This document shows positions 3,238 to 43,051 of a stretch of 48,188 nt of DNA, piece after piece. Position numbers and translations under genes: made by a program. The notes under the pieces were generated by a model. The model was not told the DNA's origin. It saw nothing but the letters and a program-made list of their open reading frames with translations, and ran no database searches. The stretch's first letter is position 1; each line of letters begins with the position of its first letter. This DNA is from an uncultured Kiritimatiellota bacterium (GTDB taxonomy: Bacteria; Verrucomicrobiota; Kiritimatiellia; RFP12; DVOR01), in the NCBI GenBank assembly GCA_944389945.1, contig CALXOF010000017.1:1-48188 (forward strand), read 5' to 3'.

Positions 3238-4525
3238 GCTCTATCACCAAATCGACAACATTTCCGGCTCCGTCGTCACCCTTCGTGCGGAGGGCGTCAA
3301 GAACCGCGAACTCGCCGAAATCGACTCTCGCGTCGGCACGTCCCTGGCGCAGGTCATCAAACTCGCCGGCGACGAGGTCACCCTTCAGGTCTTCGCCGGC
3401 GCCCGCGGCGTGGCGACCGATGCGCAGGTGCGCTTCCTGGGCCACCCGATGCAGGTGCCCTTCGGCGATGAGCTCCTCGGCCGCGTCTTCACCGGCTCTG
3501 CCAAGCCGCGTGACAACGGCCCCGAGCTGACGATGAACCCCACCGACATCGGCACGCCTTCGGTCAACCCCGCCAAGCGTATCATTCCGCGTCACATGGT
3601 GCGCACCGGCATCCCGATGATCGATGTCTTCAACACCCTCGTCGAGAGCCAGAAGCTCCCCATCTTCGCCCGCGCCGGCGAGCCCTATAATGAGCTCCTC
3701 GCCCGCATCGCCCTCCAGGCCGAGGTCGACGTGATCATTTTGGGCGGCATGGGCCTGAAGCACGATGACTACCTCGCCTTCCGCGACAAGCTCGATGCCT
3801 CCGGCGCCCTCTCCCGCACCGTGATGTTCGTCCACACCGCGGCCGACCCCGTGGTGGAGTGCATGCTCGTGCCGGACGTCTCGCTGGCCGTGGCCGAGCA
3901 GTTCGCCCTCAAGGGCAAGCGCGTCCTCGTCCTGCTCACGGACATGACCTCCTTCGCCGATGCGATGAAGGAAATCGCCATCACCATGGAGCAGATTCCT
4001 TCCAACCGTGGCTATCCCGGCGACCTCTACTCCCAGCTCGCCGCCCGTTACGAGAAGGCCGTCGACTTCGAGGGCGCCGGCTCCATCACCATCCTTGCCG
4101 TGACCACCATGCCCGGCGACGACGTGACGCACCCCGTCCCGGACAACACGGGCTACATCACCGAGGGCCAGTTCTACCTCCGCAACGGCCGCATCGAGCC
4201 CTTCGGCTCCCTCTCTCGTCTCAAGCAGCAGGTCAACAAGGACACCCGCGAGGATCACCGCACCATCATGGACGCGATGATCAAGCTCTACGCGCAGTAC
4301 AAGGACGCCGCCGAAAAGCAGTCCATGGGCTTCCGCATGAGCGAGTGGGACAAGAAGCTCCTGCGCTATGGCGCCCGCTTCGAGGAGAAGATGATGGACC
4401 TCTCCGTGAACATCCCTCTGGAGCAGGCCCTCGACCTCGGCTGGCAAATCCTCGCCGAATGCTTCGAACCCATGGAGACCGGCATCCCCACCAAGATGTC
4501 CGATAAATTCTGGCCAAAAAGCTGA
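3230..4525 (+). CDS. atpB: V-type ATP synthase non-catalytic subunit B
   Basis: Regulatory subunit of the A3B3 head, 431 residues against a usual 430-470. It has the family start ([12 protein letters not shown]) and no Walker A motif, as expected for subunit B. Conserved stretches include [15 protein letters not shown] and [18 protein letters not shown]. The stop codon at 4523-4525 lies inside the left arm (4520-4553) of an inverted repeat, so the last codon or two of the gene are supplied by that repeat. Subunit D, its usual neighbour, starts only at 4986 because a four-helix-bundle gene is inserted between them. Confidence 0.96.
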
Positions 4526-4553
4526 TTGGCTGATTAGCTGATTGGCTGATTGG
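4520..4553 (+). repeat. Left arm of perfect 34-bp inverted repeat flanking the S23-type gene
   Basis: The arm consists of four copies of an 8-bp unit GCTGATTR plus one extra base at each end. It is identical over 34 of 34 bases to the reverse complement of 4947-4980. Identity stops abruptly on both sides. It contains the stop codon of atpB. In the mRNA the two arms could form a 34-bp duplex with the S23-type gene in the loop. Confidence 0.95.
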
Positions 4554-4567
4554 AACGCAAAGCGTCA

Positions 4568-4966
4568 ATGCAATCCCAGCAGACAGAGAAAGCCGTCTTT
4601 CGCCATCGGCAGTTGGAGGTTTGGCATGCTGCCATGTCTCTGGCCAAGGGCGTGCATGTTCAGATTGCGAATTTTCCGATTGAGGAGCGGTTTGGCCTCT
4701 ATTCACAGCTTAGCCGCACCTCTGTCGCGGTTCCGTCAAATATCGCGGAAGGTGCTTCTCGGCGAACTCCAATAGATTTCGCTCATTTCCTTGGTATTGC
4801 GCGGGGCGCATTGGCGGAGCTTGACACGCAATTGGAGTTGGCGGAGGCGTTCGGTTTCCTGACGTATACCCAAGAGAGAAAGGAGGAGATTGCGCAATTG
4901 GCAAGACGGTTGAATGCATTGGTGCGCCGGTTGACTTGCGAACCTACCAATCAGCCAATCAGCTAA
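4568..4966 (+). CDS. Four-helix-bundle protein (S23 / 23S rRNA intervening-sequence protein family)
   Basis: About 132 residues from ATG 4568; a TTG at 4550 inside the left repeat is an alternative start. The pattern fits the S23/IVP four-helix-bundle family: LEVWHAAMSLAK in helix 1, the hallmark PSNIAEGASR between helices 2 and 3, and GALAELDTQLELAEAFGFL in helix 3. Relatives are encoded inside intervening sequences of 23S rRNA genes and, as Avd, in diversity-generating retroelements; their cellular role is poorly defined. No reverse transcriptase or template repeat is nearby. The stop codon and the last residues (NQPIS) are encoded by the right inverted repeat. It splits the V-ATPase operon between B and D and has no clear ribosome binding site. 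Confidence 0.85.
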   Translation: MQSQQTEKAVFRHRQLEVWHAAMSLAKGVHVQIANFPIEERFGLYSQLSRTSVAVPSNIAEGASRRTPIDFAHFLGIARGALAELDTQLELAEAFGFLTYTQERKEEIAQLARRLNALVRRLTCEPTNQPIS

Positions 4967-4980
4967 TCAGCCAATCAGCT
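4947..4980 (-). repeat. Right arm of perfect 34-bp inverted repeat flanking the S23-type gene
   Basis: Exact reverse complement of 4520-4553. It contains the stop codon of the four-helix-bundle gene (4964-4966) and ends 5 bases before the ATG of atpD at 4986. Any original Shine-Dalgarno sequence of atpD would be expected here, and none is visible. Folding of the two arms would bring the stop of atpB within a few bases of the start of atpD. Confidence 0.95.
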
Positions 4981-5597: not shown

Positions 5598-7429
5598 TTG
5601 TCCCGATGTTGCGCCTGACCCTGCTTTGCGCGGCCAAGGAGCGCCTCGCCGCGCTCAACGCCCTCCGCGCCATCGGGTGCGTCCACGTTGCCCTTGAGGT
5701 GCGCGATGGCGAAGGCATCCGCCGCGCCGCCTCCGCCGTTGCTTCCGCCGAACAGGCCCTCCGCGTCCTCGACGCCGCCGGAAAGGGCGGGGCCTTCGTC
5801 TTCAAGCCGGACGCCGCCTCCCCGGTCGCCGCGATGAACTTCGAGGCGCTCCTCGCCGCCGCGAAGAACCCCGCCAAGCCCGCTTCCGCCGCCGAGGTCA
5901 ACCGTCTGGCCGAGCTTGCCACTCGCCTCTCCGAGGAGGCCTTCGGTTATTCTCTGGCCCTCCGCCGCTACGCGTCCTTCGGTGAGGTTGACCCCGTCAC
6001 CGTCGCCGCGCTGGCTGCCGCCGGTCTGCCTGTGCGCCTCTTCAAGGCCCCGCAGAAGGTCGCCGCCGAGCTTGGCGCGAATGCTTACCTCTTCTCTACC
6101 GAGGCCGGCTTCACCTATGGCGCCTGGATCTCCGCGGAGCCGCTCCCCGCGTCCTGCGAGGCTATCCCGCTCCCGGAGTTGTCCACCGCAGTCATGCGCG
6201 CCCGCGCCCTCGATGCCGAGGCCGCCGCCGAGTCTCTCAAGGTGCAACTCGCCGCTTGCGAAACCCTGCGTCCCGAGTTGCGCCGCGAGGTCTCCGCCGC
6301 GCTTGCCGACCGCACCGCCGCCGAGGTTTCCGCCAATCTGCGTGACGCCGGCGAAATCGCCTACCTTCGTGGCTACATTCCCGCTCGCGCCGAGACCGAC
6401 CTCCTTGCCAAAGCCAAGTCCGAAGGTTGGGGTGTCGTCACCGAGGAGCCCGACGCGGACGATCCCAACGTCCCCGTCCTGCTCGAACCGCCGCGCATTT
6501 TCCGCTCCATCGGCGTGGTCTTCAAGGGCCTTGGCATCCTCCCCGGCTACACCGAGGGTGATGTCTCCATCCCCTTCTACGCCTTCTTCTCCCTCTTCTT
6601 CGCCATGCTCGTGGGCGACGCCGGCTACGGCGCGCTCATGTTCGCGGCCGTCGTTGCCGCGGCTGTCGCGCTGTGGAAGAAACCCGCCGCGCGCCCCGCG
6701 CTCACGGTCTTTGCCGTCTTCAGCCTTTCCACCATTCTGTGGGGCGTCCTCTCCGGCACCTACTTCGGCATTGCGAAGGCAGACCTTCCCGGTTTCCTCA
6801 CCGCCATCCCGACGGTCGGCTGGCTGGGCCAGGACGCGAACATGATGTTCCTCTGCTTCCTCATCGGCGCGGTGCACATCTCCATCGCCCGCCTGTGGAA
6901 CGCCGTCCTCCTCTGCCCCAGCCTCAAGATGGTCGGCGAAGTTGGCTGGCTCTGCGTCACGTGGGGCATGTTCACCGTCGTCTGCAACATCGTCGTGGCC
7001 TGGTTCTCCGCCCCCGTGGGGCTGATGGCCGGCCTCGTCGGCGCGGGCGTCGTCCTCATCCTCATCCCGCTTGTCGCCGACATCAAGAACGAGGGCGTGA
7101 ACGTCGGCATGCTGCCGCTCAACGTCATCAGCGCGATGGGCGACATCATCAGCTACGTCCGCCTCTTCGCCGTCGGCCTGGCCTCCGTCAAGGTCGCCGA
7201 AAACTTCAACAGCATGGCCTTGGGGCTCGACCTTCCCATCGCCCTGCGCGTCCTCGCCGTCGTGGCCATCCTGCTCATCGGGCACGGTCTGAACCTGGCC
7301 ATGGGCGCGCTCTCCGTCCTCGTGCACGCCGTCCGTCTCAACACCCTGGAGTTCTCCAACGCCAAGGGCATCACCTGGGCCGGGCAGCCCTACGCACCCT
7401 TCAGCCAACCGCAACATTGTCAACAGTAA
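5594..7429 (+). CDS. atpI: V-type ATP synthase subunit I (a-type stator subunit)
   Basis: Membrane stator subunit, 611 residues. The N-terminal part (about 1-310) is soluble and alpha-helical and would dock onto the peripheral stalk. The C-terminal part holds about seven membrane helices, starting around residue 318 (YAFFSLFFAMLVGDAGYG), and forms the ion half-channels facing the K ring. The motif ISYVRLFAVGLA near residues 518-529 carries the essential arginine of the family. It overlaps atpD by 4 bases and is followed after 13 bases by atpK. Confidence 0.95.
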   Translation: MIVPMLRLTLLCAAKERLAALNALRAIGCVHVALEVRDGEGIRRAASAVASAEQALRVLDAAGKGGAFVFKPDAASPVAAMNFEALLAAAKNPAKPASAAEVNRLAELATRLSEEAFGYSLALRRYASFGEVDPVTVAALAAAGLPVRLFKAPQKVAAELGANAYLFSTEAGFTYGAWISAEPLPASCEAIPLPELSTAVMRARALDAEAAAESLKVQLAACETLRPELRREVSAALADRTAAEVSANLRDAGEIAYLRGYIPARAETDLLAKAKSEGWGVVTEEPDADDPNVPVLLEPPRIFRSIGVVFKGLGILPGYTEGDVSIPFYAFFSLFFAMLVGDAGYGALMFAAVVAAAVALWKKPAARPALTVFAVFSLSTILWGVLSGTYFGIAKADLPGFLTAIPTVGWLGQDANMMFLCFLIGAVHISIARLWNAVLLCPSLKMVGEVGWLCVTWGMFTVVCNIVVAWFSAPVGLMAGLVGAGVVLILIPLVADIKNEGVNVGMLPLNVISAMGDIISYVRLFAVGLASVKVAENFNSMALGLDLPIALRVLAVVAILLIGHGLNLAMGALSVLVHAVRLNTLEFSNAKGITWAGQPYAPFSQPQHCQQ

Positions 7430-7442
7430 AGGAACACATACC

Positions 7443-7898
7443 ATGATGGATCCGCTCATCGTCGCAGGCGCCGTTGCCTGTCTCGCCCTCTCCGGCCTTG
7501 GCTCTGCCATTGGCACGGGTTTTGCCGCCGCCGGCGCCATCGGCGCCTGGAAGAAGTGCTACGCGCAGAACCGCCCCGCGCCCTTCCTCCTCCTCGCCTA
7601 CGTCGGCGCCCCCATCACCCAGACGCTCTACGGGATGATCCTCATGTTCACCATGATCGGCGTCCAGAATCCCGTCCCCGGCGCCGGGTTCGCCATGCTC
7701 ATCCTCGGCATCTTCGCCGGCGCTGGCATCGGCATGTCCGCCATCTTCCAGGGCCGCGCGGGCGGTTGCTCCGCCGATGCCCACGGCGAGACCGGGCAGG
7801 GCCTCACCAACAACCTCGCCGCCCTCGGTGTCATTGAGACCACGGCCATCTTCATCATGGTCTTCACCCTCATCGCCGTCGGCAACCTCGCCGCCTAA
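7443..7898 (+). CDS. atpK: V-type ATP synthase subunit K (16-kDa proteolipid ring)
   Basis: Proteolipid of 151 residues with four membrane helices in two hairpins, forming the rotor ring. The ion-binding carboxylate is Glu132 in helix 4 (VIETTAIF). The residues that ligate Na+ in Enterococcus hirae NtpK (Thr64, Gln65, Gln110, Glu139) have apparent counterparts here in Thr59-Gln60 (PITQTLYG), Gln103 (IFQG) and Glu132. This suggests sodium rather than proton coupling, which is inference from alignment by eye. AAAGGA precedes the start at 7443; the second ATG at 7446 is equally possible. It is the last gene of the operon. Confidence 0.95.
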   Translation: MMDPLIVAGAVACLALSGLGSAIGTGFAAAGAIGAWKKCYAQNRPAPFLLLAYVGAPITQTLYGMILMFTMIGVQNPVPGAGFAMLILGIFAGAGIGMSAIFQGRAGGCSADAHGETGQGLTNNLAALGVIETTAIFIMVFTLIAVGNLAA

Positions 7899-7986: not shown

Positions 7987-8108
7987 CTTAAGGGGCCTTT
8001 TGAGACCCTATAGTGGTCCGAGGTCAACCACTATAGTGGTCGGGGGCGAGACCCTATAGTGGTCCGACCCGAAACCCTTAAGGGTCCGCCAAAGCCCCTT
8101 TTGGGGTC
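7987..8108. repeat. 23-bp-period palindromic repeat array, copy 1
   Basis: CTATAGTGGTC heads start at 8008, 8031 and 8054, exactly 23 bp apart. Degenerate heads continue the register at 8077 (CTTAAGGGTCC) and about 8100 (TTTGGGGTC), with another at 7987. The heads are parts of palindromes such as ACCACTATAGTGGT (8027-8040) and CCCTTAAGGG (8075-8084). The roughly 12 bases between heads vary. The array lies between the V-ATPase terminator and the next operon. Three further copies lie in this window near 22868, 32097 and 41707. Confidence 0.9.
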
Positions 8109-12391: not shown

Positions 12392-12713
12392 GGAATCTGA
12401 GTCTGGGGAGGTTTTACCGCGAAGACGGTTTGGCGTGGAAACCCGGCGGGCTCCATCGCTCCCGTTGGTCGCGCCGCCCTTGGGATTTCCACGCTATCGC
12501 GCCCACACTGGAAGCTTGGAAGTTTGGAGGTTTGGAAGCTTGGTTTTCGGGGAGAGGCTTTGCCCCACCCCCTATTTTCTTACTTCAAGGCGCGAAACGG
12601 AGGGCGGCGGTCGCGGTCAGCGGCGAAGCCGCAGAGCGACCGATGGAGCCCGGGCGTTTCGCGCCTCCTTTTGCGTCTTTGCGGTTTCTACCTTCCGTTG
12701 GAGCCACTGGCTG
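12392..12713. repeat. Intergenic region rich in inverted and tandem repeats
   Basis: Convergent gap between the sulfatase and yraN. It contains an inverted repeat GCGTGGAAA (12433-12441) with 12486-12494, a 34-bp tandem array at 12510-12543, and a longer inverted repeat GGCGCGAAACG (about 12590-12600) with 12655-12665. Within the latter an inner GGTCGC/GCGACC pair would extend the hairpin. The motif GGGCTCCATCG occurs at 12448-12458 and inverted at 12641-12651, and again at 32013. No gene was found. Confidence 0.6.
12510..12543. repeat. Solo 34-bp arm made of four 8-bp units
   Basis: Four tandem copies of an 8-bp unit of the form GGARGYTT followed by GG. The total length is 34 bp, the same unit size, copy number and total length as the inverted arms at 4520-4553 and 4947-4980, though with a different unit sequence. 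No matching inverted partner was found nearby. Confidence 0.8.
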
Positions 12714-21084: not shown

Positions 21085-22719
<1,635 letters not shown>

Positions 22720-22802: not shown

Positions 22803-23063
22803 CAGTGTCCGGGGAAAGCGTTTCGCGACCTCCCTCCGGCAATCCTCAGTGGGCACATCCTAAAAGGGTCTCTCTGGACCACTATAAGGGTTCGCCCCTG
22901 ACCACTATAAGGGTTGACCTCGGACCACTATAGGGTCTCACCCCGAAACCCTTAAGGGTCCAGAAAACCCCTTTTAGCGGCTCTCCCACGAACCCTCACT
23001 TGTGCTCTCTGTGCCATGCTGTAATCTAAACCTGTCGCACTTCGTTTTCCCGGCCAGGACTAC
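22803..23063. repeat. Composite element enclosing repeat array copy 2, with possible terminal inverted repeats
   Basis: The left end reads CAGTGTCCGGGGAAA from 22803. The right end, 23045-23063, read on the minus strand is GTAGTCCTGGCCGGGAAAA, an imperfect inverted match to the AGTGTCCGGGGAAAA block. Between them lies the 23-bp-period array. This would be a roughly 260-bp element without coding capacity, as in a MITE, but the right-end match needs gaps. Confidence 0.4.
22868..22980. repeat. 23-bp-period palindromic repeat array, copy 2 (inverted orientation)
   Basis: GACCACTATA heads start at 22877, 22900 and 22923, exactly 23 bp apart. A CCCTTAAGGG head follows at about 22945-22958 and a degenerate CCCCTTTT unit at about 22968. 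Orientation is opposite to copies 1, 3 and 4. It lies between the groEL terminator and the tilS promoter. Confidence 0.9.
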
Positions 23064-30900: not shown

Positions 30901-31021
30901 CACCCTCATCGCCAGGGCGGATGGCTACCGTCCTTGTGGGGTCGATTCGCACCGTCTTGTCGGTGGAAGCCGTGTTGTCCTGCTGGGGTGGGGGCGGCGT
31001 CTGCGGCGTCTCGTCGGCCAT
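27914..31021 (-). CDS. Membrane Ser/Thr protein kinase with zinc ribbons and coiled-coil C-terminal domain
   Basis: 1035 residues. Residues about 60-325 form a Hanks-type kinase: glycine loop GKVGDGGMG (64-72), Lys89 (VAIK), HRDLKPAN (199-206), DFGLA (219-223) and SAPE (250-253). All catalytic residues are present. Residues 341-383 hold four CxxC pairs (CKWC, CAEC, CREC, CPSC), a double zinc ribbon. A helical linker leads to one membrane helix at about 551-572. The rest, predicted extracytoplasmic, is largely coiled coil rich in Glu, Arg and Lys up to about 975, with a Pro/Gln/Ala tail. It lies between eboB (13 bases upstream) and pyrK. It could sense the envelope and signal inward. Confidence 0.93.
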   Translation of the reverse strand: MADETPQTPPPPQQDNTASTDKTVRIDPTRTVAIRPGDEGVTTDLLHDDPAQHHGPMDDYAICGKVGDGGMGVVYLARDRRLGRYVAIKRLNEKALADPILRQRFLQEARAVAALNHAHIVHIYALGEDALGPYIIMEYVSGPAGTEVVSAGQDSQPPKNLTLEQFINRNGPMTADEAVSMILKIANTMVYAHSCGVIHRDLKPANILLDPSMEPKLVDFGLARISPQEGRTQVAELTVPGEKLISLGYSAPELEQDASCSDVRADIYSLGAILYFLLTGRNPRYYREQDVPAFLREVMRRSLETVREQRYRTAQDFVKALTEAASHGRTVAPTIKTTWRCKWCDAVNPISTKFCAECGWDGSERCRECGAEIFVGQQYCPSCGADCRMYEHVSSIIALMDQAWEDRHFERIATIAGRLHGFEPAGPTGRKMLSDAHARVEEAERKVARRNRLAALIPNELKAENYERAQAFIEEFRTLNEDAMVYEEELREIPNKILTRDLARIRQCIRLHDWSTARRLTENLAATYGNNPEYQDVRSRVLLHSRRFRKIALGGGIAVSVVLYLLSMPLAARLAGGTFGPVSSTLYTPARGIAHIPGIHFLMSRYATLFTDKQDFDDYFRSAQEPAERPQEVPNVIKATTALPALPEDLEKARSQFANRLDEIERRRHDQHNDLLTQYLDELTAAHDSAQKAGNYDGVVAVTRAIEAYTESNALGAVLPDDPPFLAGIKLRMARRHEEQEILAARQTRMVVRKYREALEEKSKTYTKQGEMDKAGLVQEEVKRIQALPEVTAALTLLKSSKNDLFLGDEASLAETEQLREELRATREELRGKLRAINEECSKALGDWPSDYEAALNNLITTFQQSGNFNAWEAVALERSRFEAENTLTPQNLVEDPDGLRQIQETFIQRLQSVAEKRNTAKSIVYNDYLAGMEKRKTELTKAGKLDSASVVNQEIREIRQSRGYAAVTRSVAPAAPHPQPTQTPAATPAAQPIPQPAVTPQPMQPDLGLDPEAGLPPQTITVPTPPMAQSEPQP

Positions 31022-31034
31022 GGTGGCTCTCCGG

Positions 31035-31880
31035 TCAAGGCTGGCGTTGATAGGTGGTCGGGTCCTGCGGCACCACGTCGAAGTCGGGCTTCCAATGCGG
31101 CGAGGCAGAATAGAAGGTCATCGGCGTGTCATGCGTGATGGCTTCGATGACCTTTTCCTCAAAGCCATCCTTTCGCAGTTGCGCCACTACCTTGATGAGC
31201 GACAGCGGGTCGCTGATGCCCCAGTCCGCCGAGCCGTTCACAATCACGCGCTCGTGCCCATGCTCCTTAATCATCGCGCTCACGCGCTCCGGCGAGAGCT
31301 TGGAGTAAGGATACACCGTCATGCCCGCGTAACAGCCGCTCTCCAAGGCCAGGCCGATGGTCTCTTCCACGTTGTGGTCGATGTCAATGCGCTCGCACGT
31401 CAGGCCTTCGCCTTTGATGATTTCCAGCACGCGCTTAATGCCCTTGAGCTTGTTGAAGTGCGGCAAGTGCAACACCACCGGCATCTTCCGCTCTTCAGCC
31501 ATCAGCAACTGCCGCACCAAGGCGTGTTCTTCGTTCTCCGTGATGTTGTTGAAACCGATTTCGCCCAACGCCACACACCGCGGATGGTCCAGATATTCGG
31601 CCATTCCATCGATGACTTCATCCGCCAGCTTACGGTTTTCCGCCTCCTTCGGGTTCATCCCGATGGCGCTCCAATGGTCGATGCCATACCGCGCCGCGCG
31701 CGTGTGCTCAAATTCCAGCGACAGTCGGAAATAATCGAAGAACGAACCCGCGTAACGGCGGTTTTCCCCCAACCAGAAGGAAGGCTCCACGCACACGCGG
31801 ATGCCATTCGCGCGCATCGCCATGTAGTCATCGGTCGTTCGCGCAATCATGTGGATATGGGGCTCAATGATCGGTTTCAT
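31035..31880 (-). CDS. eboB: TatD-family metal-dependent hydrolase, EboB-like
   Basis: 281 residues. It begins with IEPHIHMIARTTDDYMAM, the conserved opening of EboB proteins, followed by EPSFWLGE and the YGIDHWSAIGMNPKEA segment. Metal ligands of the amidohydrolase/TatD fold are visible as HIH, ALGEIG (Glu), VLHLPH, DHN and SADWG (Asp). The start at 31880 is fixed by AAGGAGG six bases upstream. In cyanobacteria the ebo cluster takes part in moving a scytonemin precursor to the periplasm; the exact reaction of EboB is unknown. It is the first gene of a five-gene operon. Confidence 0.85.
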   Translation of the reverse strand: MKPIIEPHIHMIARTTDDYMAMRANGIRVCVEPSFWLGENRRYAGSFFDYFRLSLEFEHTRAARYGIDHWSAIGMNPKEAENRKLADEVIDGMAEYLDHPRCVALGEIGFNNITENEEHALVRQLLMAEERKMPVVLHLPHFNKLKGIKRVLEIIKGEGLTCERIDIDHNVEETIGLALESGCYAGMTVYPYSKLSPERVSAMIKEHGHERVIVNGSADWGISDPLSLIKVVAQLRKDGFEEKVIEAITHDTPMTFYSASPHWKPDFDVVPQDPTTYQRQP

Positions 31881-31903
31881 GCAAAACCTCCTTGCAAACA
31901 TCT

Positions 31904-31912
31904 CTTATACTA
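31904..31912 (-). promoter_or_regulatory. Candidate -10 box of the eboB operon
   Basis: On the minus strand TAGTATAAG (with TATAAG at 31909-31904) lies about 24 bases upstream of the eboB ATG, after a T-rich segment (GGGATTTTGTGG). The leader would be short and includes the AAGGAGG ribosome binding site. Confidence 0.4.
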
Positions 31913-31956
31913 CCACAAAATCCCACCTTCCGTTGCGATGCCGAGGCGTTTCGCAG

Positions 31957-32051
31957 TAGTGTCCGGGGAAAATGGGGCCCGCAAAGACGGCACTGTGGGC
32001 ATGAAATACCTCGGGCTCCATCGGGCGCGCTGCGGCTTCGTCGCCAACCGC
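31957..32051. repeat. Shared AGTGTCC block and GGGCTCCATCG repeat beside array copy 3
   Basis: TAGTGTCCGGGGAAAA at 31957-31972, followed by CACTGTGGGC, aligns with 41603-41640 near array 4 and more weakly with 22803-22817 near array 2. GGGCTCCATCG at 32013-32023 and the following bases align with the minus strand of the 12590-12651 repeat over about 30 bases. Confidence 0.6.
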
Positions 32052-32096
32052 TCCCGCCGCCTCAGCGGCACCACCCCAGACCCTCTCGTCTAAGCT

Positions 32097-32199
32097 CCCA
32101 AAGGGTCCGCCGCGAGACCCTATAGTGGTCCGAGGTCAACCACTATAGTGGTCGGGGTCGAGACCCTATAGTGGTCCACCCCGAAACCCTTAAGGGTCT
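32097..32199. repeat. 23-bp-period palindromic repeat array, copy 3
   Basis: Heads at 32097 (CCCAAAGGGTC), 32120, 32143 and 32166 (all CTATAGTGGTC) and 32189 (CTTAAGGGTCT): five units at an exact 23-bp period. Long stretches are identical to copy 1. It lies between the end of tlpA and the promoter of eboB. Confidence 0.92.
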
Positions 32200-32351: not shown

Positions 32352-33341
32352 TTAGGGGAGGGAGTCGATGAAGGTTTGCCACTCGGTGCGAAGAGCCTGG
32401 AGGTCGGGGTCATCTGGCGTGGCGATGGAAGAGAGGCGGCGGAGCTGGAGCGTGGCGGAGGACTTGACGCGGGAGGGATTCTGCGCGGCGGTCTTGCGGA
32501 GGTTGGCGAGGGCCAGGCGAGAGGTGGCGAGAGCCTTGATGCGGGGATCTTTGATCAGCGGGTCAAGAAGCGGTTTGAGGTCGGCGGCCTTGGAGGGGAG
32601 GGTGCGCAGGAGGGTCTGGCCGTCGGCGAGGGCTTGGGAGGGATTGGTCTCGATGTTGGCGCGGATGGCGGCCTCGGTCTCCTTCGCCCAGTCTTGGCAA
32701 CGGGTGAGGAGGGCGCGGGCCTCTTCGCCGGCGGGGCCGGAGCGGCGGGCGCGGGATTGGAGTTGGCGGAGGGCGGACTCGATGTTCTGGCCGATCATGA
32801 GGCGGCGGGCGAAGTCTTGGTTGTAGCGGAGGGACATGCCGTCGGCGATGGAGCCGGGGACGGGCTTGGGCGCGGCTTTGATGGCGTCCTTAACGGCCTT
32901 TTCGAAGGCGGCGAAGTCCTCGAGGGTGTTGCCGGCCCAGACGACTTCGCCATCGTGGCCAACGACATAGCCGGTGGGGAGGAGGCTGCCGGCGGAGGGC
33001 GCGCCGGGGACACCGAGGAATTGGTAGGTGGAGAGGTTGGGGCACCCGGCGGACTCGAGGACGGCGCGGACGGCGGCGTCATCGCGACCCTGGAGGTGGG
33101 AGCCGAGGAAGACGACGCGGGTTTCCTTGGCGAGGTCGTCGGCGAGCTTGGCGACCTTGGGGAAGGCGGCCTTGCAGCGGGGGCAGAAGCGGCCGAAATC
33201 GTAGATGGCAACGACCTTGCCATCGAGGGATTCGGGGGAGACTTCGGGGCCGGCGATGTGGTTGTCGGCGGAGAGGCCGGAGAGGTCGAGGGCGCAGAGG
33301 GGCGCGGCGACGAGGGCGGCAAGGAGTGGAAGCAGGCGCAT
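32352..33341 (-). CDS. TlpA-like secreted thioredoxin-fold protein
   Basis: 329 residues with a signal peptide (MRLLPLLAALVAAPLCALD, cleavage near residue 18). A redoxin domain at about 35-160 carries the CPRC pair (FGRFCPRCKAAFPK, near 53-66), as in TlpA/ResA-type reductases of envelope disulfides or apocytochromes. Residues about 165-329 are an extra helical domain without a known family. AAGGA precedes the ATG at 33341, just after the ahbAB stop. It may supply reductant to System II cytochrome c assembly (ccsA, resB at 16455-17827), which is inference. Confidence 0.8.
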   Translation of the reverse strand: MRLLPLLAALVAAPLCALDLSGLSADNHIAGPEVSPESLDGKVVAIYDFGRFCPRCKAAFPKVAKLADDLAKETRVVFLGSHLQGRDDAAVRAVLESAGCPNLSTYQFLGVPGAPSAGSLLPTGYVVGHDGEVVWAGNTLEDFAAFEKAVKDAIKAAPKPVPGSIADGMSLRYNQDFARRLMIGQNIESALRQLQSRARRSGPAGEEARALLTRCQDWAKETEAAIRANIETNPSQALADGQTLLRTLPSKAADLKPLLDPLIKDPRIKALATSRLALANLRKTAAQNPSRVKSSATLQLRRLSSIATPDDPDLQALRTEWQTFIDSLP

Positions 33342-38322: not shown

Positions 38323-39877
38323 TGAGCACCTCCTCCGGCACAATGCAGCCGGTTTGCACGTCTCCAATGGCCTTGGGCAGGGCGAAGCGCACCCGGCCGT
38401 CGGCCTTCTTTTTGTCGTGAGAAAGGTATTGCCGCAGTTCCTGCGGGTCGAGTCCCGCGGGGATTTCGGTGGGCAGACCGAGGGTGGCGAGCGCACGCGC
38501 AAGGGTCTCCGCCAAGCCGGACTTGGCCAGCCCCAGGCGTTCACTGATACGCGCGGCGGCGACGGTGCCGATGGCCACGGCCTCGCCGTGCGCCACGGTG
38601 AAACGGCTTGCGGCCTCCACCGCGTGCCCCACCGTATGGCCCAAATTGAGTGCGGCGCGTCGGCCGGTCTTCTCGAAGGGGTCTTCCTGGATGGTGCGCA
38701 CCTTCACGCCCACCGAACGGATGACCAACTGCGTGAGGAAGTCAATGTCTCCACGCTTGGCCGCGAAGTCCCCGAGCATGTCCAGGAGTCCCGGGTCGCC
38801 AATGACGGCGTGTTTAAGCGTCTCGGCTAGTCCGCACCGCAATTCGCGCTCGGGGAGCGTGGCGAGAGTTTCGGTGTCGGAGAGGACGGCGCAGGGCGGA
38901 TGGAAGGCGCCAATCAGATTCTTGCCCGCGGGCAGGTCGGCTCCCGTCTTACCGCCGACGCCCGCGTCGACCATCGCCAGGAGGGTCGTGGGCAGATTGA
39001 GCCAGCGGATACCGCGGAGCCAGGCCGAGGCCGCGAAGCCGGTGAGGTCGCCCACCACGCCGCCGCCCAGAGCGATGACCAATGCGCCGCGTTCCATTCC
39101 GGCCGCGAGCATTGCACCCCAGATGCGCTCCACGGTGGCGAGGGTCTTATGCTCCTCCCCGGCGGGAATCTCGAAGGTCGGGATCTCACGGCCCAAGGCC
39201 GCAAAGACCTTTTCCTTATATAAAGGCATCGTGTTGGAGTCGCCCACCAGGAGGAGTTGTTTCGGCACGGGCTCCAACTTCGCAATCGTACGCGGCAACT
39301 CCGCGAAGGCATTCGGCGCGACCGTCACCGTGTAGGGCGCGGCCATCCCCGCCACGCGGTAGCGTCCGAACGCCGTGAGCACACGCGGCCAGACCTCTTG
39401 CGGGCTGGGGTCGCCGGTCAGGTTCACGCGCAGGGGGAAGGAGGCGTAGTGCTCCCGCCGCTCCTCCAACGTCTTGCGCAGGGCGGCGGCGTCCTTCGAG
39501 AAGGGGCGGCTTCCGGCCTTGCGCTCTACGCGCTTGGCGAGTACCTCCGGCGGCGTGACGATGCAGACGATGGGACCGCAGGCCTCGGTCATCGCGCGGT
39601 TTTGCGGCCGCAACAGCGTACCGCCGCCCAAGGCGACGACCGCGTCGGGGCGTTCGTTGCAGAGGGCCCGGAGTGTCTCGGTCTCGGCGTCCCGGAAGGC
39701 TTCACCCCCGGCCTTCGCCACGTATTCCGGAATGGTCATCCCCACGCGTTGCTCCACCAGCGTGTCCAAATCGATGGCCGTCTTGCCGAGCGCCACGGCC
39801 AGATTACGTGCGCAGGTAGACTTGCCCGTCGCGGGCGGGCCGTAAAGGAAGAGGGTGGGGGATGCCAACGGAATCAT
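38294..39877 (-). CDS. aroKB: Shikimate kinase / 3-dehydroquinate synthase fusion
   Basis: 527 residues joining two shikimate-pathway enzymes. Residues 1-170 are AroK, with the P-loop GPPATGKS (13-20) and ALGGGT near 83-88. Residues about 175-527 are AroB, with GDSNTMPLY, GGGVVGDLTGFAAS, the metal-site Glu in LAETLKHAV, and His in NLGHTVGHA and FTVAHGEAVA. It makes 3-dehydroquinate from DAHP and, two steps later, shikimate 3-phosphate. It overlaps recN by 4 bases. It is a true AroB rather than EboD, although other ebo genes are in the window. Confidence 0.95.
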   Translation of the reverse strand: MIPLASPTLFLYGPPATGKSTCARNLAVALGKTAIDLDTLVEQRVGMTIPEYVAKAGGEAFRDAETETLRALCNERPDAVVALGGGTLLRPQNRAMTEACGPIVCIVTPPEVLAKRVERKAGSRPFSKDAAALRKTLEERREHYASFPLRVNLTGDPSPQEVWPRVLTAFGRYRVAGMAAPYTVTVAPNAFAELPRTIAKLEPVPKQLLLVGDSNTMPLYKEKVFAALGREIPTFEIPAGEEHKTLATVERIWGAMLAAGMERGALVIALGGGVVGDLTGFAASAWLRGIRWLNLPTTLLAMVDAGVGGKTGADLPAGKNLIGAFHPPCAVLSDTETLATLPERELRCGLAETLKHAVIGDPGLLDMLGDFAAKRGDIDFLTQLVIRSVGVKVRTIQEDPFEKTGRRAALNLGHTVGHAVEAASRFTVAHGEAVAIGTVAAARISERLGLAKSGLAETLARALATLGLPTEIPAGLDPQELRQYLSHDKKKADGRVRFALPKAIGDVQTGCIVPEEVLNGILAGQRP

Positions 39878-41553
39878 AGAGCGAGTTCCTCCTGTTCAGG
39901 GCGGGTCTCGGCGAGCAGGGCCTGGGCATGACGCGCCGCGGCCTCGCCGCCGCCAAGCATACGCGCGAGCTCCTCGGTGCGGGCCTCCGGCGCGAGACGT
40001 TCGATGCGGGTGACGGTACGTCCGCCCTCCACCGACTTGCTCACGCGGAAGTGGGTCTGCCCATAGACCGCCGCCTGCGGCTGGTGGGTGATGCACAACA
40101 CCTGCGTATCTTCGGCCAGACGGCGCAACTTTTGGCCCACGCGGCGACCCGTCTCACCGCCCACGTTCGCATCGATTTCATCAAAGACCAAGGTCGGCGT
40201 GCCGTCATGCCGCGCGAGAATCACCTTTACCGCCAGCATCACGCGGGCGATTTCGCCCGAGGACGCGATGTCCGCGAGTGGCCGGGGCGCTTCGCCGGGG
40301 TTCGGCTCGAACGAAAAGACGGTCTTGTCCATTCCCGTTGGCCCCGGCGCGCAGGGTTCCAAGGCGATGGGGAAAGAGGCTTGGGCGAAGCCCAGGTCGC
40401 GCAGTTCCGCCGTAATGGCCGCGGCAAGCTTGGGGGCGGCCGCGGCGCGCTTGGCCCGCAGGATCTCTCCGGCTTGACGCAACGCGCGCTCGGCCTCGAC
40501 CACTTGATTGCGCAAAAGCTGCAAGTCGCCTTCTGCGGCGTTGATGGCGTCCAATCGTTCCTTGTCCGCCTCCCAATGGGCCAACACGTCTTCCAGGGTC
40601 GGACCGTATTTGCGCTTCAGGCGTTGAATCTGCCCCAAACGCGCCTCCAGACGCTCCAGCCCTTCCGGGTCGGCTTCAATCTGCGACAGTCGCATGGCGA
40701 TGGACTTCGAGAGCTCCTGCAACGCCACCTGCGCCGACGTCAGCTCCTCGCCCCAATCTTCCGCCTCCGGCAGAAGCCCGGCAAGGGACCGCAACGCGCG
40801 GTGCACCTCCATCAGCTGTTCCGTGAGTGCGCCTTCGCCGTCGGAGAGACGGTCTGTGAGGGCGTTACCAATAGAAAGGATTTCTTCCGCGTTCGCGGCG
40901 GCCTTGTGGCGTTCCGTCAGCGGGTCACCGTCGTCCTCGGTGGGGTTCACCTGGCGGAGTTCCTCGAGTTCCTCGACCAAGCGGTCAATTTCGGCTTTTC
41001 GTTCCCCCGGCTCACCTTCGGCCTCCTGCAAGCGCGCCTTGAGGGCCAACAGGGCCTCCCAACGGCGTTGATAGGCCTCCAACTCTCGGTCCGCCCCGGC
41101 ATAGGCCGTGAGCAGACGCAGTTGGAAACCCGCATCGAGGAGCGACAGATTGTCCGTCGGCCCATGGATGTCCGTGAGCAACGGCGCCAACTTGCGCAGG
41201 AGCGCGGCGGTCGCGGGAGCATCGTTCACGCGGATGCGGCCATTGCCATTTGCCAGAATGGCGCGCTTGAGGATGAGCGTCCCCTCCTCGCACGGCGGTA
41301 CGTCCGCTTCGCGCAGAATGGCGTCCACCGCACGCGTATCGGCCAGTTCATAGACCGCACTCACCGCGGCCTCCTCGGCCCCTGTACGGATGGCCGAACG
41401 GTCGGCCCGCTCGCCCAAAATCAGATGCAAGGCCCCCATGAGCACGGATTTACCCGCGCCGGTCTCACCGGTGATGACGTTTAACCCCGGGCCGAACAGC
41501 GCTTCCGCCGCCTCGACCACTGCCAGATTCTTCACTGCCAGCCGCACCAACAT
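39874..41553 (-). CDS. recN: DNA repair protein RecN
   Basis: SMC-like ATPase of double-strand-break repair, 559 residues, normal length. It has the Walker A motif GETGAGKS near residue 32-39, a central coiled coil (about 150-370), and the Walker B region LVFDEIDANVGG near 460-471. A CITHQPQAA segment follows. The start MLVRLAVKNLAVV matches the family. It is first in the operon recN, aroKB, hexokinase, nuclease, ahbAB, tlpA. Confidence 0.96.
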   Translation of the reverse strand: MLVRLAVKNLAVVEAAEALFGPGLNVITGETGAGKSVLMGALHLILGERADRSAIRTGAEEAAVSAVYELADTRAVDAILREADVPPCEEGTLILKRAILANGNGRIRVNDAPATAALLRKLAPLLTDIHGPTDNLSLLDAGFQLRLLTAYAGADRELEAYQRRWEALLALKARLQEAEGEPGERKAEIDRLVEELEELRQVNPTEDDGDPLTERHKAAANAEEILSIGNALTDRLSDGEGALTEQLMEVHRALRSLAGLLPEAEDWGEELTSAQVALQELSKSIAMRLSQIEADPEGLERLEARLGQIQRLKRKYGPTLEDVLAHWEADKERLDAINAAEGDLQLLRNQVVEAERALRQAGEILRAKRAAAAPKLAAAITAELRDLGFAQASFPIALEPCAPGPTGMDKTVFSFEPNPGEAPRPLADIASSGEIARVMLAVKVILARHDGTPTLVFDEIDANVGGETGRRVGQKLRRLAEDTQVLCITHQPQAAVYGQTHFRVSKSVEGGRTVTRIERLAPEARTEELARMLGGGEAAARHAQALLAETRPEQEELAL

Positions 41554-41706: not shown

Positions 41707-41830
41707 CCATAAAGGGCGGTTTCTGGACCCCTAAGGGTTTCGGGTCGAGACCCTATAGTGGTCCGAGGTCAATCCCTATAGTGGTCGGGGTCGGACCCCT
41801 ATAGTGGTCCAGAAAGGACCCTTATGGGAT
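41707..41830. repeat. 23-bp-period palindromic repeat array, copy 4
   Basis: CTATAGTGGTC heads at 41753, 41776 and 41799, exactly 23 bp apart. Degenerate heads continue the register at about 41707 (CCATAAAGGG), 41730 (CCTAAGGGTTT) and 41821 (CTTATGGGA). It lies between the recN promoter and the end of the rsm22-like gene. Confidence 0.9.
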
Positions 41831-41902: not shown

Positions 41903-43051
41903 TTAGACGGAGAAGGAGAAGTCTTCGAGGTCGTCGAGGGCGGGGGGCGGGTCGTCGGGGAAACGGAGGTCGGCGGCGCGCTGAATGGCGCCGAGATCGA
42001 CTTGGCGGCGAGCATCGAGCGGACCGTCGAGCCAGGCACAGTCGCCGCGCTGGCGTTGGAGGAGGGCGTGGCGGCGCTCGGCGGGGAGGGCGGCGGCGGG
42101 GAGTTCTAGGCGGCGGACGGCGCCGTCGCCCATGCAGACGCGGCAGGCAAGGACGCCTTTGGCTTTGTCGACGGGGCCGATGAGGCGGAGGAAGTCTGGG
42201 TCACCGAAGCCTTCGGTCTGGGGACCGCCGGGGCGGCCGAAGGCGAGGAGGGCATATTTCACGTCGCTCACGGTGCGGCGGAGGCGACGGCAGAGAAGAA
42301 CGAGGGGGCGGCCGGGTCGGAAGCGGCGGACATCGTGGCAGACACCGTCTTGCACGGGGTTGAGAGGGCAGGGGCCGCGGTGGGGACAGGGGGCGTAAAG
42401 CGGGAGTTCGGGGAGGAGTCCGCGGAGGGCATGGAGGCGCGGGACGCTGGCACGGTCGGCGGGTTCGAGGAGGAGGATAAAGGCGGGGGCGTCGGTGGCG
42501 AGTGCGTCGGCCCAGCGGCGGAGGGCGGCCGCGGCGGCTTGGGGGTCGGGCCAACATTCGTTGACGGCGAAGGAGGCGATGATGATGTCGTAGGGGCCTT
42601 CGGGGGTGTAGCGGCGGAGGTCGGCGCGGACGGTTTTGGCCTCGGGGAGGAGTTCTTTGACGGCGGCGAGGGCGGCCTCGGACCAGTCGACGCAGGTGGG
42701 GTTGATGGGGCCGAGGAGGTCCTTGGCGGCGAGGGAGGCGGAGGCGAGTCCGCATCCGAGGTCGAGCACGCGGAGGGGGCGCTTGGGGAAATCGGGGAGG
42801 CGGGCGAGGATGCCGGCGAGCGCGGCGGAGACGCGGGCGTGGGTCTGCGGCGCGAAGGCGAGGGCGTAGGCGGTGAGGGCGTCCGGGGTGTCGAGGTAGG
42901 GGACGAAGGCCTCGGGGCGCTCGGCGGTGAAGGCGGCGGAGAGCGTGGCGACCTGCGGCTCCAGGCGGCGGAGGTCGCGCAGGGGACAACGGGCGAGGCC
43001 CCAGGCTTCGAGCGCGGCGATGCCGGGGGGCGTGGGCTCAGAGGGTGTCAT
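41903..43051 (-). CDS. Rsm22-like class I SAM methyltransferase
   Basis: 382 residues of the Rsm22 family (small-ribosomal-subunit-associated methyltransferase). The SAM motif LDLGCGLASAS lies near residues 91-101, with CVDWSEAAL after it. The cysteine-rich APCPHRGPCPLNPVQDGVCHD region near 218-238 supplies probable metal ligands, a family hallmark. The C-terminal 140 residues are beta-rich. The start at 43051 overlaps dnaG by 14 bases. Mitochondrial relatives are needed for ribosome assembly; the bacterial substrate is unknown. Confidence 0.85.
   Translation of the reverse strand: MTPSEPTPPGIAALEAWGLARCPLRDLRRLEPQVATLSAAFTAERPEAFVPYLDTPDALTAYALAFAPQTHARVSAALAGILARLPDFPKRPLRVLDLGCGLASASLAAKDLLGPINPTCVDWSEAALAAVKELLPEAKTVRADLRRYTPEGPYDIIIASFAVNECWPDPQAAAAALRRWADALATDAPAFILLLEPADRASVPRLHALRGLLPELPLYAPCPHRGPCPLNPVQDGVCHDVRRFRPGRPLVLLCRRLRRTVSDVKYALLAFGRPGGPQTEGFGDPDFLRLIGPVDKAKGVLACRVCMGDGAVRRLELPAAALPAERRHALLQRQRGDCAWLDGPLDARRQVDLGAIQRAADLRFPDDPPPALDDLEDFSFSV

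Follow-up and report, generated by a model that had tools for sequence, protein, structure and literature searches.

Near-palindromic units at a pitch of 22-23 bp form intergenic arrays that are spread evenly along a Kiritimatiellota chromosome. The geometry of the arrays is kept while the letters change and their distribution is regular, which supports a multivalent double-stranded target. We tentatively propose that the arrays are sites for several copies of a predicted dimeric DNA-binding protein and that they may organise the chromosome as evenly spread anchors or boundaries.

The window arrays are members of a genome-wide family

The window is the whole 48,188-bp stretch of DNA that was analysed. 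It belongs to an incomplete Kiritimatiellota MAG (G000) of 2,325,100 bp in 34 contigs, 92.3% complete, of which 999,896 bp (~1.0 Mb) were examined for arrays. The preliminary description placed four arrays in the window (7987-8108, 22868-22980, 32097-32199 and 41707-41830), and all four were confirmed at these positions. Within each, four or five units keep the register and follow the pattern ACC-N6..8-GGT around an AT-rich centre, and degenerate units lie outside them. Array 1 (7987-8108, plus strand) has four in-register units at 8005-8085 (ACCCTATAGTGGT, ACCACTATAGTGGT, ACCCTATAGTGGT and ACCCTTAAGGGT) and lies 3′ of a V-type ATPase subunit K gene (7443-7898) that is followed by a terminator-like hairpin and T-run, as judged by eye. 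Array 2 (minus strand) runs opposite to arrays 1, 3 and 4. It lies where it was described but starts earlier: the first of its five units (22857-22959) begins at 22857, and the array spans 22857-22980. It is 3′ of groEL (21085-22719), again after a terminator-like hairpin and T-run (by eye). Array 3 (32097-32199, plus strand) has four units at 32117-32197 and is flanked by minus-strand genes at 31035-31880 (a weak TatD match, under the curated cut-off) and 32352-33341. A location of array 3 inside a repeated gene was considered and rejected: the ORF at 30921-32093 is without a family match, and the gene caller favours the other strand. Array 4 (41707-41830, plus strand) has five units (41727-41830). 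The genes on either side are both on the minus strand; one is SMC/RecN-like (39874-41553) and the other encodes an Rsm22-like methyltransferase (41903-43051). The window neighbours with a Pfam match include no replication gene, and the window contains no tRNA and no Rfam match at gathering scores.

The 15-mer ACCNCTATAGNGGTC was matched 28 times in the window with ≤3 mismatches, compared to a mean of 5.8 and a maximum of 13 in shuffled sequence (n = 100), and 25 of the 28 matches fall inside the four arrays. The paired word CTATAGTGGTC-N12-CTATAGTGGTC, also with ≤3 mismatches, has 344 matches genome-wide versus 0 for the reversed control. The family is thus not unique to the window, and the 23-bp spacing is kept in its other copies. 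A first sample (contigs C1, C2 and C3 plus the window) contained 43 arrays and contigs C4 and C5 contained 21; a degenerate array on C4 was added to these 64 to give 65 arrays in the 999,896 bp, or ~150 per genome by extrapolation. The first 448 kb of G000 holds 26 arrays, and a profile search of that 448 kb returned no additional match at E <0.1. Solitary copies of the 11-mer head (≤1 mismatch) are absent from the first 448 kb and number three on C4 and C5; base composition predicts ~9.5 in 1.0 Mb. An autoregulatory solitary site was rejected; one of the three solitary heads is a degenerate array and no regulator gene was seen beside any of them by eye.

Units recur at a 22-23 bp pitch

The number of units per array ranges from 2 to 7, mostly 3-7, with a mode of 4. 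Centre-to-centre steps were measured in 57 arrays (43 of G000, 13 of its congener G005 and 1 of its congener G004; several chains are incomplete). All 187 steps fall within 21-23.5 bp and 174/187 within 22.5-23.5 bp, under a chaining rule that allowed only 21-25 bp. Because the chaining itself admitted only these distances, the spacing of palindrome triples provides an independent test of the pitch. Triples of the ACC/GGT type in 448 kb formed 4 groups at 22 bp, 24 groups at 23 bp and 1 group across the 23 other spacings between 15 and 39 bp. A sequence-agnostic palindrome scan was insensitive, and the known arrays themselves were not recovered by it. The preliminary description had the 23-bp register running through the degenerate units as well. 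This is correct for the core units, but the outermost degenerate heads are 1-2 bp off (21 bp from the head at 7987 to the next, and 22 bp between the head at 8099 and its neighbour).

The ACC and GGT ends of the half-sites are constant and 6-8 bp between them are variable. The heads were described as parts of palindromes, and a perfect palindrome is present in 93/329 units; the commonest unit, ACCACTATAGGGT (128/329), is nevertheless a poor palindrome with 6/13 positions self-complementary. Mixed arms occur in 20/66 14-mers and a compensated pair in 0/66 (few cells; Fisher P 0.34). The suggestion made from the window, that the arrays resemble operators bound by an oligomeric protein, is still the best reading. 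The fixed pitch, the constant ACC/GGT ends, the variable centre, the pitch across inverted units of a congener and the lack of strand bias all support such a putative binder. The other suggestion, strict iterons of the kind found at replication origins, is a poor fit because there are ~150 array copies per genome.

Arrays are evenly spaced and enriched in convergent gaps

The 65 arrays define 59 intervals with a mean of 14,955 bp and a coefficient of variation (CV) of 0.555. Random-gap nulls gave CVs of 0.91 (context-weighted) and 0.88 (context and length), with P values of 5e-5 and 1e-4, respectively. Intervals <7.5 kb are depleted, with 8/59 observed compared to 23.2 and 22.5 expected under the two nulls. 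The evenness was first seen on C1, C2, C3 and the window (43 arrays, CV 0.57, P ≤0.0007) and was repeated on C4 and C5, which were added after the effect was first seen (21 arrays, CV 0.571, P 0.011 and 0.021). Among the remaining intergenic repeats of the first G000 sample, five families have CVs of 0.94-1.32 and do not differ from their nulls; two of these five have just 9 and 10 intervals, and a sixth family with 3 copies was left out. The evenness is weak in G005 alone (13 arrays, CV 0.58, P 0.03, 0.05 and 0.09 depending on the null) and is not significant in a third congener, G011 (11 clusters, CV 0.82, P 0.28).

Gene calls from our own codon-usage gene caller underlie all placement and context counts. 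None of 64 listed arrays overlaps a called gene by >30 bp, which bears out the intergenic location noted in the window. Gaps of ≥150 bp contain 63 of the arrays, one further array sits in a shorter gap, and the occupied gaps comprise 23/49 convergent, 11/53 divergent and 29/176 co-directional gaps. The excess in convergent gaps is significant (23/49 versus 40/229 other gaps, P 4e-5). Array orientation shows no strand bias with respect to gene direction (15 with, 14 against). The genes adjacent to arrays (126/707) have ordinary, varied functions and no gene family is enriched among the 126; the largest family (17 members) has 5 adjacent members versus ~3 expected.

Other dispersed sequences were observed in the same genome. 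A 34-bp perfect inverted repeat of the GATTGGCTGATTAGC type lies at 4520-4553 and 4947-4980 of the window with its arms 393 bp apart, and in the first G000 sample the corresponding word recurs without even spacing at 40 loci, of which 39 are intergenic. The dispersed intergenic repeat CGACCGATGGAGCCCG is present at 12603-12652 and 32012-32061 of the window. This repeat and AGTGTCCGGGGAAA-like words occupy G005 gaps whose G000 counterparts hold arrays.

Congeners carry different units at the same pitch

The window unit type was detected in 3/288 genomes sampled from the class, all in this genus. Window-type pairs number 344 in G000, 237 in G005, 8 in G004 and 0 in the other congeners, some of which carry arrays at 22-bp pitch with other unit sequences (GATACGGAGC and AACCCTTAGGGTT). 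Pairs of GATACGGAGC at 22 bp occur 97 times in G011 versus 0 in its control and 0 in G000. There are 3 such pairs in G006, 1 in G007 and 1 in G015, and 10/42 genomes outside the genus have 1 each, which is the chance level. Unit centres are 22 or 44 bp apart in 9/11 intergenic clusters in 199 kb of G011, including inverted neighbours whose raw offsets of 19, 25 and 41 bp become 22, 22 and 44 bp once centred; the two exceptions show 20 and 68 bp. This set keeps a cluster at 151977 that is probably due to chance and excludes one at C2 13473 that has the right pitch but was called inside a gene. Another set of congener clusters has 8/9 members at the 22/44-bp pitch and the ninth, in G007, at 12 bp. 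Pairs of the ACCCTTAAGGGT type 44 bp apart number 108 in G008, 23 in G015 and 2 in G000, and a middle unit at 22 bp is often present. The pitch is not explained by copying alone because the different unit of G011 keeps the 22/44-bp distances even between inverted neighbours.

Two further repeat loci were observed in the genus. Palindromes of the GTTACGGAGGTAAC type are repeated within ~100 bp at positions 6880-6990 of locus L135 (G015) and may represent a further unit family, and direct intergenic repeats of GGCGAAATTGAGTC have a period of 22-23 bp at positions 467-531 of locus L194 (G016).

Arrays are gained, lost and copied

The array cores are 94-100% alike over ~86-90 bp (best 40 copies scored, query included). 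Cores this similar indicate that copying has spread the arrays, a behaviour shared with selfish repeats. Eight sites were inspected in G000 and G005, leaving out five further G000 arrays with matched flanks; an array is present in both genomes at 5 sites and is missing beside matched flanks in G005 at 3. At the site of array 1, the V-ATPase gene and its terminator-like hairpin are followed by an array in G005 too, but one of different sequence and opposite orientation. A further site has matching flanks in three genomes and encloses 1 unit in G000 (27 bp), 4 in G005 (95 bp) and 7 in G004 (164 bp). The lengths differ by 68 and 69 bp, and arrays thus grow and shrink by ~23 bp per unit. For the arrays at 22868 and 32097, the two flanks map to separate places in G005. 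The semi-conserved outer motif AAGGG-N-CCTTTCTG is inverted at both array ends, as judged by eye.

A non-autonomous spreading repeat, either a satellite or MITE/REP-like, would account for many of these features with no host role, and a target-immunity-like process or the recombinational loss of close copies would then produce the evenness. We consider this a serious alternative with perhaps a one-in-three standing. The many copies with near-identical cores, the inverted outer motifs, the gain and loss between close relatives and the variable unit number between the same flanks are all in line with such a repeat, and the same genome is rich in other intergenic repeat families. The other tested repeat families are not evenly spaced, however, and spreading alone leaves unexplained a pitch that is kept across species with other unit sequences. 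Single units are also scarce where they were counted, with 0 solitary heads in the first 448 kb and 3 on C4 and C5. The transposase family searched, RAYT (PF01797), has no match in G000 or G005; RAYT/REP was rejected on these 0 matches, and 2/17 congeners have matches, one of them over the cut-off.

A proposed architectural role for protein-binding arrays

The reading that we propose is that several copies of the predicted dimeric protein would occupy one array side by side, with each dimer contacting ACC/GGT-type half-sites. The 22-23 bp pitch would put the proposed cooperative binding on one face of the helix. Bound arrays might then serve as a loop anchor, a supercoil-domain boundary or a nucleoid-positioning mark and not in gene regulation. 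We infer all four elements of this scheme: protein binding, a dimer with ACC/GGT-type half-sites, cooperative binding on the same helix face and an architectural job. Geometry and distribution make an architectural role the most economical reading, and we favour it cautiously, with a self-avoiding repeat as a serious rival. An extended version is more speculative and we think it unlikely to hold in full. It envisages a genus-wide grid in which a docking array about every 15 kb would divide the chromosome into near-equal segments, the pitch would be under selection, and the site sequence and its putative binder would co-evolve so fast that sister species have unrelated sequences.

A review counts the nature of the barriers to supercoil diffusion in bacteria among the open questions and describes these barriers as randomly placed (PMC6907758). 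If the architectural reading is true, sequence-defined, evenly spread multivalent sites would make the supercoil-barrier question directly testable, and the constant-size tandem repeats of bacteria, which are unexplained, would gain a suggested function. If the arrays are selfish instead, they would represent a repeat that keeps away from existing copies of itself, and this also requires a mechanism.

A special case of the architectural reading is that the arrays mark the chromosome for a cell-division or segregation factor (Noc-, SlmA-, MatP- or ParB-like), which we regard as improbable. The NBS, SBS and matS sites of such factors are mostly single sites. Excerpts of the published accounts describe Noc/NBS, SlmA/SBS and MatP/matS as systems in which palindromic 12-14 bp sites, dispersed like the arrays over the chromosome or else over its Ter part, are read for division or chromosome organisation, with ~70 NBS, 24-52 SBS and 23 matS per genome (PMC4726725, PMC3116907). 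According to the same excerpts, NBS and SBS are underrepresented in Ter and matS is confined to Ter (PMC4726725, PMC3116907), and the distribution of NBS and SBS is uneven (PMC4726725). The arrays differ in that they mostly have 3-7 units, number ~150 per genome (extrapolated) and are evenly spread. The genus also has its own parS word, TGTTCCACGTGGAACA, which differs from the array unit and is present in 12/17 genomes, with two places in G000; parS was rejected as the identity of the arrays. The ParB_N family has two matches in G000, of which one is strong and the other weaker. Five parS words lie 45-51 bp apart at one locus of another congener (G014:C7:1603-1807); the word occurs twice in nine congeners and three times in two others.

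Control of the genes beside the arrays by one regulator has a very low probability. The sites are palindromic, operator-sized and intergenic, and at least one gene start faces 40/63 of the array gaps ≥150 bp (29 co-directional, 11 divergent). The excess in convergent gaps (23/49), where no gene start faces the array, the even spacing, the lack of orientation bias and the lack of an enriched gene family among the 126 neighbours argue against regulation.

The least probable of these alternatives is that the arrays act as RNA, in the form of hairpin chains at transcript ends that would be terminators, stabilisers or small RNAs. Strong folding is predicted for either strand of all four arrays in the window (z -2.6 to -7.1), as tandem palindromes give by construction, and the text available on the 52-nt repeats of Bacillus coagulans reports that these are transcribed (PMC8161180, PMC8625621). 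The earlier idea that each unit forms a small RNA hairpin is not favoured by the unit statistics despite this strong folding, with the commonest unit self-complementary at 6/13 positions and compensated changes at 0/66 (few cells). A whole-array hairpin with covarying outer arms was suggested by eye and rejected: the complementarity of an outer arm to its own partner does not exceed that to swapped partners (P 0.46-0.96; 8 scorings, 76/77 arrays), and another scoring of the outer arms was likewise null (P 0.22-0.94; 12 scorings, several chains incomplete). With no hairpin compensation and no array-specific outer covariation, an RNA role is therefore not favoured. The arrays also show no strand preference, the window lacks Rfam matches at gathering scores, and arrays 1 and 2 sit beyond terminator-like hairpins (by eye).

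Relation to known repeats

The preliminary description knew of no named family of this form. This has to be qualified, as Subirana and Messeguer have described bacterial tandem repeats whose size is constant (20-23 or 52 nt) while the sequence varies (PMC8161180). These repeats are the closest class, with a fixed length given in the available sections as 20-21/20-23 or 52 nt compared to 22-23 here (PMC8161180). They resemble the arrays in being non-coding, with many per genome, a species-specific sequence and partial turnover between strains (PMC8161180, PMC6749651), and both have short conserved words, which in the 52-nt class often occur with their reverse (PMC8161180). The constant length of 20-23 nt that characterises the class in these sections (PMC8161180) has its counterpart here in 22-23 bp only (28 groups versus 1), with 22 bp in G011 and 44 bp in G008 and G015, and its species-specific sequence has a counterpart in the window, GATACGGAGC and ACCCTTAAGGGT types of different congeners. 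Subirana and Messeguer also propose a polymerising nucleoid protein, or RNA (PMC8161180). The arrays differ from the class, as far as these sections describe it, in their near-palindromic units, in-phase inverted neighbours and short length (mode 4), in their even occurrence every ~15 kb and excess in convergent gaps, and in the Kiritimatiellota host. The survey setting was ≥4 repeats per array (PMC8161180), and some of the arrays here, with 2-7 units, fall below it. To the constant-size, variable-sequence class as it appears in the available sections, the present arrays add palindromic units in phase and an even spacing along the chromosome.

The REP/BIME elements are, in the parts of the reports available, also extragenic, palindromic, often clustered and frequent in convergent gaps (PMC1525189, PMC6907758), and BIME can hinder supercoil diffusion (PMC1525189, PMC6907758). 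REP units are 21-65 nt (PMC1525189, PMC6907758), whereas the arrays have a strict pitch, no RAYT and no hairpin compensation. No paper on palindromic intergenic repeats in Kiritimatiellota was found in the PMC open-access literature. In the available portions of the literature on constant-size repeats, REP/BIME and NBS/SBS/matS, no report of even spacing or in-phase palindromic arrays was found.

Tandem in-phase sites about two helical turns apart are also known from plasmid iterons and sopC/parC-type centromeres. These occur as one or a few per replicon beside the gene of their own protein, whereas the arrays are dispersed and are not beside any one gene family.

Two similar arrays were seen outside the Kiritimatiellota set. 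An intergenic tandem array of GACCACTATAGTGATCATGCCGC with a period of 23 bp, very like the window unit, lies at ~2520-2790 of locus L087 on a contig binned as Thiomargarita, and the array word is confined to one contig of that genome record. On a 99.9-kb viral contig (locus L096, 1360-1510), CTATAGTGGTC occurs four times at distances of 23, 21 and 21 bp, together with a variant copy. These are possibly iterons, and the ORF downstream of them may encode a replication initiator.
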